Part shown: positions 8,820 through 31,859 of the stretch, piece after piece
Numbering within the stretch: position 1 is the first letter of the stretch
Layout of the letters: each line of letters opens with the position of its first letter
Source: Acidobacteriota bacterium
GTDB taxonomy: Bacteria; Acidobacteriota; Vicinamibacteria; Vicinamibacterales; CAVVIG01
DNA: 64,000 bases
NCBI GenBank assembly: GCA_003222395.1
Contig: QHWB01000042.1
Location: 62,001 to 126,000 of the forward strand
Direction of reading: 5' to 3'
Notes under the pieces: generated by a model
Told to the model about the DNA's origin: nothing
Databases searched by the model: none
The model's input: the letters and a program-made list of their open reading frames with translations, nothing else
Program-made: the position numbers and the translations under genes

Positions 8820-8846
8820 ACGCTCGCCTGAAAGGCTCGCGCTACG
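8820..8846. repeat. Dispersed repeat word (copy 1)
   Basis: The word GCTCGCCTGAAAGGCTCGCG occurs here and again at about 29769-29788, inside the N-terminal coding region of a 'sulfatase' gene. It contains the inverted pair GAGCC / GGCTC-like half-sites. Here it lies between DUF2277 and ettA. Confidence 0.6.
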
Positions 8847-27402: not shown

Positions 27403-29910
27403 TCAGCGCCGGGAGTGGGGCCCCGGCGTTTGGGAATGCCTACTTTCCAGCGCGCGGCCTCGTGCGGCCTCCTGTTGCGCTTCAGCCGGCTTGCCCCGAC
27501 GCGAGTAGACGTCGGCGATCACGTAGTGCCCGAGCGGCGCGAACTCCGACTCGGGCGCGAGCTCAATCCCTTTGCGCGCGAGTGCGATCGCTTCGTCGAG
27601 GTTCTGCTCGAAATCGAGATACAGCTTCGCCAGGAACAGATGGCCTTCTGCGAAGCCGGGATTGAGCTCGATCGCCTTTCGAAACGCCTCGCGCTGACCC
27701 TCGCGATCGCCGAGACGCTCGTACAACTTTCCGAGGTTGAACGCCGCCTTGTAACTGCCGGCGTGCAGATCGATTTCCCTGCGGTACTCCGCGATGGCGC
27801 CCTGAAAGTCGCCCCGCTGCTCGGCGAGGAGCGCGAGGTTGTAGTGCGCGAGGCGGACGTCGGGTTTGTCGGCGATCGCCTGATGGATGTCGCGTTCGGC
27901 CGCGACGAAGTCGCCGCGCTGGAGCGCGACGACGGCGAGCGCGTTGCGCGCGGCCGCGAGCTTCGGCTCGAGTTCGAGTGCGTGCGTCAGCTCCGCTTCG
28001 GCGGCGTCGAGCTTCCCGTTGTCGAGCAGGATCTGCGCCGCTTCGTACCGGATCTGCGCGTTTTTCGGGTCGAGCTCCATGAAGCGGCGGTAGCCGACCA
28101 TCGCCTCCTCGTCGCGCCCGAGCGCGCGGTACGCGTTCGCCATGTTGACGACGACGAGATCGTAGTCGGGTTTCAGCTCCAGGGCGCGTTGGTACTGCGC
28201 GATGGCGTGCCGGTAATCGTGCCGCCGGTAATACTCGTTTCCAAGCATGAACCAGGCGTCGATGACCTTCGGATCCTGCGCGACGACGCGTTCGAGCGCG
28301 TGCAGCGCTTCCTCCGATTCGCGATCGTGGCGCGCGGTCTCGCGCGCCGCGGTCATCAGGTTGAACAGCTCGATCTTGTCCTTCGGGTCGGCGAGGCCCG
28401 CGCGATCGCTCGAAGCCGCCGCGACGAACGTGCCGACGTAGCCGAGCGCCGCGAGCCGCTGGCGCGCATCCGGATCGACTTCAACGTCCGTTTTCGCCGC
28501 CGGCGCCGCCGCCGACATCCGGCGTTCGAGCGCGCTCAGCTCCTGCTGCATCCGATCGCCGAGCGCGGGCCGTTCCGGATAGATGTTCTTCGATTCCGTT
28601 GGATCCTGCTGCAGATCGTACAGTTCCGGACGCGGCGCCGCGACGTACTTGTAGCGCCCGGAGGTGAGCGCGCGGAGATCGCTCCATCCGAAATGGAATC
28701 GCGGGTAAACCGCTTCGGAATACGCGCCGAGGCCGAGCTCCTTCCTGGCCCCGGTCATGAGCGGCACGACGCTCGCGCCCTCGAATTGTTCCCCGGTCTG
28801 GACGCCGAGCAGGTCCAACGCCGTCGGCAGGATGTCGATGCTCCGCACCGTGTCGGTCACGCGCCGACCCGCCATCGAATCGAACGGCGCACGAATCAGG
28901 AGCGGCACGTGCAGGGTCGCCTGATACACGAAGAAGCCGTGCGTGCCTTCGCCATGCTCGCCGAGGCTCTCGCCGTGATCGCCCATCACGACGACCACGG
29001 TGTTCCGCGCGAGGTCGTGCGTGTCGAGGTACGAGAGCAGGCGGCCCACCTGCGAATCGACGAAGGCGATCTCGCCGATGTACGGGTGACCCGCATAGCG
29101 CGACGCGAACGGCTCCGGCGGCTGGTACGGTGAATGCGCGTCGTAGAAATGGACCCATCCGAAAAAGCGCCGCGACCCGATCCGATCCAGCCACGCAAGC
29201 GCTTTGTCGGCCACTTCGTCGCCGGGGCGATCGACGCTGCCGAGCGACAGCGACTGGTATTTCGTCAGGTCGAAATCGTCGAAGTAGGTCTCGAATCCCT
29301 GCGATACGCCCCATTTGTGATCGAGCACGTACGCGCCGACGAAGCCGCCCGTCGCGAACCCGCGATCGCGCAGGCGCTCGGCGAGCGTCGTCTCGCTGTC
29401 GTCGAGAAAAAAGCCGCCGTTGTCGCGGACGCCGTGGGCCGGCGGAAACTTGCCGGTGAAGATCGACGAATGAGCGGGCAGCGTGAGCGGCGCCGGCGCG
29501 ACCGCCTGCTCGAAGAGGATTCCTTCGCGCGCGAGCCGATCGAGGTTCGGCGTCGCAATGCCATCGAAGCCGTACGCGTGGATGCGGTCGGCGCGCGTCG
29601 TGTCGAGCGTCACGAGCAGGAGATTGAGGTCCGATGGACGGACGCCCGAGGGCAAATGTCCGAGGGGCTCGCCGCGGACCGAAGTCACCGTGCGCGGCAT
29701 GTAACGCCACCAGCCGATCGCCGCGGCGAAGGCGGCGACGACGAGGATCAGGGACCACGATCGCCAGATTCGCTCGCCTGAAAGGCTCGCGCTGCCCCTC
29801 AACCGCGGGAGGCCACGCCTCGGCCGCGGGAGGCCACGCCTCGGCAGCGGGAGGCCACGCCTCGGTAGCGCGAGGCTTTTAGCCGAGCGGGGCGTCGCGC
29901 TCCACTTCAC
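27403..29910 (-). CDS. Alkaline-phosphatase-superfamily 'sulfatase'-like protein fused to TPRs (paralogue 1)
   Basis: An 835-residue membrane protein starting at GTG 29910, which overlaps the stop of paralogue 2 by 4 nt. Residues ~12-47 are a repeat-encoded Arg/Pro/Leu-rich stretch, followed by one transmembrane segment (~52-68). The catalytic domain has TLDTTRADR (Asp103) and GDHGESLGEHG (Asp311, His312). At the nucleophile position it reads LTLPAHSSIFTG: Thr143 where sulfatases have Cys/Ser, and His instead of Arg. This looks like phosphodiesterase (NPP) sites. A RLAALGYVG linker (~485) leads into about nine TPRs. The last residues are encoded by a GC-rich hairpin. Predicted periplasmic hydrolase or transferase; substrate unknown. 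Confidence 0.82.
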   Translation of the reverse strand: MKWSATPRSAKSLALPRRGLPLPRRGLPRPRRGLPRLRGSASLSGERIWRSWSLILVVAAFAAAIGWWRYMPRTVTSVRGEPLGHLPSGVRPSDLNLLLVTLDTTRADRIHAYGFDGIATPNLDRLAREGILFEQAVAPAPLTLPAHSSIFTGKFPPAHGVRDNGGFFLDDSETTLAERLRDRGFATGGFVGAYVLDHKWGVSQGFETYFDDFDLTKYQSLSLGSVDRPGDEVADKALAWLDRIGSRRFFGWVHFYDAHSPYQPPEPFASRYAGHPYIGEIAFVDSQVGRLLSYLDTHDLARNTVVVVMGDHGESLGEHGEGTHGFFVYQATLHVPLLIRAPFDSMAGRRVTDTVRSIDILPTALDLLGVQTGEQFEGASVVPLMTGARKELGLGAYSEAVYPRFHFGWSDLRALTSGRYKYVAAPRPELYDLQQDPTESKNIYPERPALGDRMQQELSALERRMSAAAPAAKTDVEVDPDARQRLAALGYVGTFVAAASSDRAGLADPKDKIELFNLMTAARETARHDRESEEALHALERVVAQDPKVIDAWFMLGNEYYRRHDYRHAIAQYQRALELKPDYDLVVVNMANAYRALGRDEEAMVGYRRFMELDPKNAQIRYEAAQILLDNGKLDAAEAELTHALELEPKLAAARNALAVVALQRGDFVAAERDIHQAIADKPDVRLAHYNLALLAEQRGDFQGAIAEYRREIDLHAGSYKAAFNLGKLYERLGDREGQREAFRKAIELNPGFAEGHLFLAKLYLDFEQNLDEAIALARKGIELAPESEFAPLGHYVIADVYSRRGKPAEAQQEAARGRALESRHSQTPGPHSRR
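27407..27428. repeat. GGAGTGGGGCCCC hairpin repeat (copy 1)
   Basis: CGCCGGG (27407-27413) pairs with CCCGGCG (27422-27428) around AGTGGGGC. It begins one base from the stop of the 'sulfatase' and encodes its last residues. The core GTGGGGCCCC recurs at 60831-60842 and 61850-61860. Confidence 0.6.
29766..29885. repeat. GGGAGGCCACGCCTCGG tandem repeat in the 5' end of paralogue 1
   Basis: Three near-identical copies of GGGAGGCCACGCCTCGG (palindromic core GAGGC/GCCTC) follow the dispersed word GCTCGCCTGAAAGGCTCGCG, which is also at 8822. The array is translated as repeated GLPRPRR-like units at the N-terminus of the protein. Confidence 0.85.
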
Positions 29911-31859
29911 CGGATCCGATCCATCGCGGCTCGCGCGTCGGTCAACGTCGAATCCAGATCGAGCGCGAGACGATACTCGTTGCGGGCTTCTTCACGATGA
30001 CCACGCGTCTCTGCCAGGCGTCCCAGCTCGAGATGCGCGAAGCCGATCTCCGGATTGATCTTGAGGGCCTCTCGGTACGCCTGCTCTGCCGCATTCTGCT
30101 GCCCTGCCGCGCGCGAGACGAGCCCACGCGTCATCCAGCCGTCGAACGACGCAGGCTCGAGGCGCAGGCCGGCGGCGACGCGATCGAACGCCGCATCGAA
30201 GCGGCCCGCTGAAGCAAGTGTCTTCGCGGCGTCGAAGTACAACGTCGGTTCGCGCGGCGCCAGCGCGATCGCCAGATCGAGTTCGACAACCGCCTCGTCG
30301 TAGGCGCCGCGTGCGGCCAGCGCGCGTCCAACGTACTGATGGGCCTCGAACGCGCGCGGGAACGATCGCGTCAAAGCGCGGAACTTCGTTTCGGCCTCGC
30401 GCGCACGGCCGGTTTCGAGCAGAGAGAGCGACGAGTTGAACGCCTTCACGTACGCGTCGTAGCTTCCGATTTCCTGTTTCGGATCGCCGCCGGCGCGCGC
30501 GCCAAGGGTCATGGCACCGCCGACATATCCGAGGCTCCGCAGCCGCTCGGCTGTCTGGGCGTCCACCGTGGACGGCGCAGCCGTCGCGCTCTCGCCTCGC
30601 GACGCCATCAGTGCGAGCGCGCGAGCGAGCCCCGTCGCCGTCGCTTCGCGCAGCGCTTTCCGATTCTCCAGCTCCGCGCGGTCGCTCTCGAGGTCGTAGA
30701 GCTCAGGATCCGGCGCGTCGATGTACTTCCATGCCCCGTCGCGGACGCTTCGAATCGCCGCCCATCCGAAATGCAGTTCGCCGAACCGACTCTCAGCGTA
30801 CGACGGCGATTGGAGGGGCGGAGCAAGCTGCGCCCCTCTACCGGCACCGACGCGTGTCGCCACCTTCGTCTTTGTAGGGGGCGAGCTTACTCGCCCCATT
30901 ACAGGCAGCAGGCTCAATCCATCGAACGATTCGCGCGTCCTGACGTTCAGCAGGTCCAATACTGTTGGCACGATGTCGACGTGCCGGACCTGTTCGCGAA
31001 CGGTGAGCCCAGACTGTACTCCTGGACCCTGGATGATCAGCGGCACGTGCAGCGTCGCGTCATATAAAAGGATGCCGTGCTCCGATTCGCCGTGCTCGCC
31101 CAGCGACTCCCCGTGGTCGCCGGTCGCGACGATGACGGTCTCGCGTCGGCGTTCGGGCGAAAGCGCGCCGATGACCAGCGATACGCCGAAATCGGCCGCC
31201 GCCACCTCTCCGTCGTACGGGCGGCCGGAGAATTTCGCCGCGAAGGCCGGCGGCGGATCGTACGGCGCGTGCGGATCGTAGAAGTGTACCCAGAGAAAAA
31301 ATGGACGCGGCGCCGACGCGATCCATCGCGCCGCCTCGCGCGCGACTTCCGGCGCGCGCCGCTCGAGCGACGACACGGTGACATGTGAGCGTCCCATGCC
31401 CTCGAATCGATCGTTGTAGGCCTCGAACCCGCGCGCGAGCCCAGTTGATCCACGCAGGACGAACGACGACACGAACGCTGCCGTGTGATACCCGGCATCG
31501 TGAAGCATCGCGGCCAGAGTCGGCACGCGATCCGACAGCATGAAGCCTGCGTTATCGTGGACGCCGTGCGCAGTCGGGTAACGTCCCGTCAGGATCGACG
31601 CGTGCGACGGCACCGTGAGCGGCGCGTGCGCCGTCGCGTCGAGGAACACCGCACCCTGACGGCCTAACTCGTCGAGCGTCGGCGTGACATCGTGTGGCCC
31701 GCCCTCGACACCGACGCGGTCGGCCCGCAGCGTGTCGATCGTGACCAGGATGAGATCGCGCGGCGCATCAAGCCGCGGTCGATCGGCCGCGCGACATGCC
31801 GTCATTGTCGTGACGACGACCAGAATCGTGGTGCAACTGAAAGAACCGTGCGAGCTCAC
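29907..31859 (-). CDS. Alkaline-phosphatase-superfamily 'sulfatase'-like protein fused to TPRs (paralogue 2)
   Basis: A 650-residue exported protein from GTG 31859 with AAAGGAA just upstream. The hydrophobic N-terminus ends at TTMTAC, so it may be a lipoprotein. Metal-site motifs are TIDTLRADR (Asp42) and GDHGESLGEHG. The nucleophile loop is LTVPSHASILTG, with Thr82 replacing the formylglycine Cys/Ser. Residues ~321-350 are an insertion encoded by two perfect DNA hairpins and are absent from paralogues 1 and 3. A RLRSLGYVGG linker leads into five or more TPRs. It is divergent from a TonB-dependent receptor and coupled to paralogue 1 by a 4-nt overlap. Confidence 0.82.
   Translation of the reverse strand: MSSHGSFSCTTILVVVTTMTACRAADRPRLDAPRDLILVTIDTLRADRVGVEGGPHDVTPTLDELGRQGAVFLDATAHAPLTVPSHASILTGRYPTAHGVHDNAGFMLSDRVPTLAAMLHDAGYHTAAFVSSFVLRGSTGLARGFEAYNDRFEGMGRSHVTVSSLERRAPEVAREAARWIASAPRPFFLWVHFYDPHAPYDPPPAFAAKFSGRPYDGEVAAADFGVSLVIGALSPERRRETVIVATGDHGESLGEHGESEHGILLYDATLHVPLIIQGPGVQSGLTVREQVRHVDIVPTVLDLLNVRTRESFDGLSLLPVMGRVSSPPTKTKVATRVGAGRGAQLAPPLQSPSYAESRFGELHFGWAAIRSVRDGAWKYIDAPDPELYDLESDRAELENRKALREATATGLARALALMASRGESATAAPSTVDAQTAERLRSLGYVGGAMTLGARAGGDPKQEIGSYDAYVKAFNSSLSLLETGRAREAETKFRALTRSFPRAFEAHQYVGRALAARGAYDEAVVELDLAIALAPREPTLYFDAAKTLASAGRFDAAFDRVAAGLRLEPASFDGWMTRGLVSRAAGQQNAAEQAYREALKINPEIGFAHLELGRLAETRGHREEARNEYRLALDLDSTLTDARAAMDRIR
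30812..30897. repeat. Two-hairpin element inserted in frame in paralogue 2
   Basis: Hairpin A pairs GAGGGGCG (30813-30820) with CGCCCCTC (30831-30838). Hairpin B pairs GGGGCGAG (30878-30885) with CTCGCCCC (30890-30897) around CTTA. Both stems are perfect. The element lies inside a coding region and adds about 25-28 residues without breaking the frame. Confidence 0.85.

Follow-up and report, generated by a model that had tools for sequence, protein, structure and literature searches.

A gene for a sulfatase-like protein in an Acidobacteriota genome carries two hairpins in the middle of its coding sequence. How did they come to lie within an open reading frame (ORF), and what does the protein gain from them? 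The locus is part of contig QHWB01000042.1 and was studied within a stretch of 64,000 nt (the window), which also encodes two paralogues of the protein. The initial annotation of this DNA had read the hairpins as a palindromic element that entered a working gene.

Host gene and loop length

The features of the host gene (paralogue 2 of the three in the window) are as follows.

29907-31859, minus strand: host gene, an intact ORF of 650 aa that carries the insert; its protein combines an alkaline-phosphatase-like Sulfatase domain (Pfam) with TPR repeats at the C-terminus
30813-30838: hairpin 1, perfect 8-bp stem GAGGGGCG/CGCCCCTC
30878-30897: hairpin 2, perfect 8-bp stem GGGGCGAG/CTCGCCCC
codons 30825-30890, minus strand: predicted disordered loop, residues 324-345, pLDDT <50

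Both perfect 8-bp hairpins exist as initially annotated, and the ORF shows no internal stop across either of them. The Sulfatase domain spans residues 35-306, and the host protein has all 34 columns that are invariant across a 44-protein alignment. That is, frame and flanking motifs are indeed kept. Thr82 and His86 are invariant in the 44 homologues. Classical sulfatases show a Cys/Ser-x-Pro-x-Arg formylglycine motif at this place. Judging from these residues, Thr may serve as the nucleophile in this family, whose members are perhaps no sulfatases at all.

We compared the length of the loop between the GLSLLP and FGW motifs. It comprises 53 residues in the host protein versus 32 in one window paralogue and 31 in the other, so the additional loop described in the initial annotation is found at that place, while its size is nearer 21 residues net than the approximately 25 given there. 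The comparison was extended to 153 aligned homologues. Public genome records contributed 100 of these, loci of relatives 36 and the window's own genome 17 (117 loci in all, some of them almost identical). The loop is readable in 151, since two sequences are cut off within it after 2 and 9 residues. Respective lengths are 22-39 residues in 148 homologues and 40-43 in three (median 31), with 31 or 32 residues in 105/153. Thus, none of the 153 exceeds 43 residues, and the case that had been named as speaking against an inserted element, i.e., distant homologues with the same loop encoded by non-palindromic DNA, was not encountered among them. The loop is nevertheless variable within the family even without the insert (22-43 residues).

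Among the relatives searched, which included no genome of the same genus, none provided a close orthologue of the host gene with an empty site. By identity, the nearest homologue is that of G009 (67% over 171 aa), which carries ten copies of a 12-bp tandem repeat at the same loop position (L060:3216-3335). It was dropped as an empty-site comparator because the contig enters the repeat array and the sequence is unlike the query thereafter: the frame stays open past the array but the translation no longer resembles a sulfatase, perhaps owing to fusion, truncation or misassembly.

Within the AlphaFold model of the host protein (mean pLDDT 86.8), pLDDT falls below 50 over residues 324-345 of the insert, the longest such stretch inside the chain, while the flanking ten-residue blocks score 93 (311-320) and 94 (351-360). 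The insert is thus predicted to be a disordered loop. This disorder is a prediction only, since three other stretches (1-24, 154-164 and 448-454) also fall below 50 and since low pLDDT is expected anyway for an insert that is covered by no other sequence of the alignment.

A dispersed family of GTAG-tagged palindromes

A BLAST search of the 101-nt stretch at the insert against its own genome led to a repeat family, i.e., to dispersed matches to the first of two units (best non-self E 1.9e-4) with the common form GTAGGGGCSGAGCTTGCTCSGCCC. The insert itself divides into the following parts.

30816-30841, minus strand: REP unit 1, palindrome 30816-30835 (GGGCGCAGCTTGCTCCGCCC on the minus strand) plus GTAG at 30838-30841 (minus), 2 nt away; the gene reads ..GAQLAPP..
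30842-30873: spacer of 32 nt separating the two GTAG tags
30874-30897, plus strand: REP unit 2, GTAG at 30874-30877 directly adjoining palindrome 30878-30897; the gene (minus strand) reads MGRVSSPP

Unit 1 (hairpin 1) matches GGGCGGAGCTTGCTCCGCCC at 19/20 positions with one mismatch and unit 2 (hairpin 2) matches GTAGGGGCCGAGCTTGCTCGGCCC at 21/24 with three, two of which sit, by reading the sequence, at mirrored stem positions such that pairing is preserved. Allowing for up to three mismatches, the window matches one family consensus once and the other twice, always at the insert, compared to shuffle means of 0.00 and 0.03; no shuffle equalled the number found in the window.

A genome-wide search with a pattern of the palindrome yields 28 family palindromes within the 7.74-Mb genome (G000) versus one for a reversed control pattern, and a looser pattern yields 50 versus 6. 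Patterns used before were dropped, namely two with fewer matches (8 and 14) than their controls (58 and 53) and another one that matched the window alone. Across 60 genomes, the family is found 57 times in a relative of another genus (G016), which is the richest among the genomes searched, 28 times in the window's genome, 11 times in G002 and 0-5 times per genome in the remaining 57, with controls at 0-2. In three genomes or more, copies lie in unrelated genes as well as at gene boundaries.

We collected 109 units in 81 clusters from four genomes. An exact GTAG is present at one or both ends of 68/109 units, and 28/81 clusters are dimers, whose exact tags lie outside in 8 cases and inside in 4, with one or both absent in 16. 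The window dimer shows the rarer, inward-facing arrangement (4 versus 8 outward among the 28); GGAG and GTAAT are found at its outer ends. As described in the text of PMC3733652, GTAG REPs feature a GTAG beside a short stem-loop and occur as single units and dimers, most of the latter 20-100 bp apart. A repeated short palindrome (20-40 bp), a GTAG at the stem end and pairs in opposite orientation are all found here; the insert is by its sequence a dimer of GTAG-type REPs. Membership in a dispersed family, the open frame and the lack of such a loop in the homologues compared together bear out the initial reading of a palindromic DNA element in frame within an intact ORF. For the four 20-mer palindromes of the family, no match was obtained in the open-licence literature searched, where PMC3733652 was compared by its text.

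In-frame copies within other genes

Next, we classified the 81 clusters with a codon model trained on the genes of the window, skipping clusters less than 150 nt from a locus end and taking those of G016 from among the matches listed. In total, 24 clusters are in frame within one gene, 4 keep the same frame but include a stop, 42 touch different frames or a gene boundary, 10 are weak and one is non-coding. The in-frame share is 11/30 in the window's genome, 10/39 in G016 (among the matches listed), 3/10 in G002 and 0/2 in G025. For random positions of the same loci, respective shares are 38% (245/645), 54% (460/848), 58% (131/225) and 74% (31/42), and within the window 53% (263/500) of random positions are called in frame. 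That is, REPs are not enriched in genes; they are about as frequently in frame as random positions in the window's genome and less so in G016, G002 and G025.

The set of 24 includes weak cases, e.g., L310 with scores of 6.0 and 6.9, and the comparison with relatives covers a few of its members. Host genes include those of an Hsp70, a threonine synthase and an Lhr-type helicase, and it is these three of the 24 that have independent support. In the alignment of the threonine synthase with its solved homologue 1vb3, a gap of 17 residues covers GAELAPP, and the helicase has 46 residues between aligned blocks versus 20 in the solved chain 7lhl. For Hsp70, relatives at 75-84% identity include versions with a short loop: the segment comprises 80 residues in the window's genome versus 57-61 in G009, G002, G014, G008 and G017, and G016 carries a REP dimer within the same segment (77 residues). 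Other close relatives show 69-135 residues, partly via a second variable loop; the segment is length-variable in general. Compared to solved DnaK, no gap is observed at the Hsp70 insert, and DnaK presumably has a longer segment at this place. The second variable loop holds repeat arrays in G006 (L257; VAQDFSVPG-like) and G010 (L252; TAEAVPYG-like). For a glycerate-kinase-like gene (DUF4147/MOFRL protein; L167), classed as weak and thus outside the 24, the part that aligns with a solved relative begins shortly after the REP peptide.

We also studied the register in which the units are translated. GAELAPP/RAEQAPP is found for 23 units, GGASSAP for 9 and GRSLLRP, the register that includes the TAG of GTAG in one orientation, for 2. 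In an exploratory test, in which the units of a dimer are not independent, these counts (23/2/9 for registers A/B/C) differ from a 40/20/40 null with p 0.003; when only the first unit per cluster is counted (16/2/6), the p-value is 0.027. Within one gene of G016 (L296; G016:C50:45217), RAEQAL is tandemly repeated between in-frame REP peptides, which suggests, from the sequence, a local expansion after insertion.

Are GTAG REPs a recurring source of new protein loops in this bacterial family? About 30% of the examined clusters are in frame, one register, GAELAPP/RAEQAPP, prevails and REP dimers are seen in the same Hsp70 loop of two genera, and we regard the question as evenly balanced. If true, protein evolution similar to that known from the palindromic elements of Rickettsia (RPEs) would take place in large-genome bacteria unrelated to Rickettsia.

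Origin of the insert and related elements

The sulfatase-like gene is best explained by a GTAG-type REP dimer that was inserted into loop codons and is kept as an in-frame, tolerated, disordered extra loop, a reading that we hold with high confidence. The route would likely be single-strand transposition of the REP by a TnpA-REP (RAYT) enzyme, as has been proposed for REPs generally; according to passages of PMC8266576, this enzyme acts on REPs in single-stranded form and may disperse them. Surviving insertions would be those that keep the frame, lack an in-register TAG and fall within a tolerant loop. We propose three reasons why the insertion in the window persisted: its length leaves the frame intact, the TAG of GTAG is not in register and additional residues are tolerated by the loop. 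The gene would now encode about 21 extra residues as a disordered loop, with catalysis probably unchanged. Mobilisation by a RAYT, translation of the insert and its neutrality are parts of this account that we infer.

Alternatively, the loop might be an insertion hot spot for any tandem or palindromic repeat, with the REP as one of several sequence types produced there by replication slippage or template switching instead of transposition. Several loci lend this some weight, i.e., the ten-copy array of the G009 homologue at the same point, the Hsp70 with REPs in two genomes (G000 and G016) and unrelated arrays in a neighbouring loop in G006, as well as the G016 gene with tandem RAEQAL beside REP peptides. 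Still, local slippage cannot spread REP copies across unrelated genes and gene boundaries, as is seen in at least three genomes, and we consider this origin possible but rather doubtful.

An ancestral or lineage-specific loop, whose GC-rich codons form hairpins by chance and without any mobile element, is very improbable. The 101-nt stretch folds better than 200/200 of its dinucleotide shuffles (z -4.32). The hairpins alone prove no element, since the 64 8-bp hairpins of the whole window (overlapping ones counted) are within the simulated range (mean 42.7, maximum 77) and a pair within 90 nt is present in 49/100 simulated windows; we thus rejected the hairpin count as proof, as it is at chance level in such a GC-rich window. 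The length variation of the loop within the family also fits a chance origin. What identifies the hairpins as a real element is that both units match a GTAG-tagged dispersed family (28 copies versus one in the control), which shuffles do not match. Selection of the hairpins for a role in mRNA or DNA (termination, supercoiling, mRNA stability), as hypothesised for REPs in the text of PMC3733652, with the protein loop as a by-product, is just as improbable given that the mid-gene position and the lack of a comparable loop in homologues provide no sign of a conserved role.

The inserted REP dimer has known counterparts. In 2013, Di Nocera et al. (PMC3733652) described both GTAG and CGTC REPs within genes: their text reports copies wholly inside ORFs, more than half of which form dimers or groups that encode 20-30 residues, and a roughly identical insertion site in the recB genes of two Xanthomonas species. 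The window insert resembles the GTAG type described there in its tag, short palindrome, many copies, opposite pairs and in-ORF copies. The same text stresses host genes of DNA synthesis and repair, whereas host genes here are of various kinds and the host belongs to the Acidobacteriota; it also assigns one group of transposases from Acidobacteria to those that have other inverted repeats on their flanks. Intragenic GTAG REPs are thus already known, and the interest of the present case lies in their recurrence across genes and genera of this lineage.

The Rickettsia elements, to which the initial annotation had pointed as the known precedent, are such a precedent but not the only one, and the intragenic GTAG REPs are closer. 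RPEs are described in passages of PMC3767692 and PMC2229807 as palindromic DNA within ORFs that causes no loss of frame and encodes solvent-exposed residues, with orthologues carrying insertions at the same loci. The window insert behaves similarly in that it is in frame within a normal gene with conserved flanks; its exposure is suggested by the low pLDDT. RPEs (Rickettsia, Wolbachia) are 100-150 bp long, and their likeness to the insert is judged from these descriptions rather than from sequence. Furthermore, an RPE-carrying guanylate kinase has been tested experimentally according to the same sources, while the window insert is known from sequence and model. Some RPEs are REPs of the other super-family, because the text of PMC3733652 equates RPE-4 and RPE-6 of R. 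conorii with intragenic repeats of this species that it assigns to the REPs (CGTC type).

REPs, extragenic by name, are pictured outside genes. A sizeable in-frame share would offer many natural insertions, some with short-loop relatives, and thereby a way to study the conversion of mobile DNA into protein, the register that is tolerated and the question of whether such loops ever gain a function. The sulfatase case by itself is one modest example.

A point against the proposed mobilisation by a RAYT is that the sole RAYT-type (Y1_Tnp) gene detected in the window's genome (L001; G000:C106:59066-59383) lies among a different REP family. This gene sits among tandem GTAGCGCGAGCCTTTCAGGCGAGCG units in a REPtron-like locus and is flanked by these rather than by the family of the sulfatase gene. 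GTAG REPs often, though not always, come with a RAYT that the same REP flanks. With up to two mismatches, this second REP family is matched 481 times in the genome versus 0 for the control, with three matches in the window; the 28 copies of the inserted family are modest beside this number. The genome hence resembles the RAYT/REP pairs (REPtrons) described in parts of PMC8266576 and PMC3733652 in having one Y1_Tnp gene among GTAG palindromes, and differs from them in that the REP family at this gene is not that of the sulfatase gene. In G016, copies of a third REP type (GTAGGGCGGGTCC...) surround the RAYT, and by eye no copy of the sulfatase-gene family is seen within about 600 nt on either side of the G002 RAYT.

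The abundant family around the RAYT-type gene also occurs next to the host gene, outside the insert.

29771-29889: neighbouring dimer of this other REP family (GTAGCGCGAGSCTTTYAGSCGAGCG), with a tandem array of 21-bp repeats (29805-29876) between its units; located just downstream of the host gene, where the paralogue-1 ORF has its 5' end

The real start of the paralogue-1 ORF may lie further downstream. A further copy of the same abundant family is located at 8821-8845 of the window.
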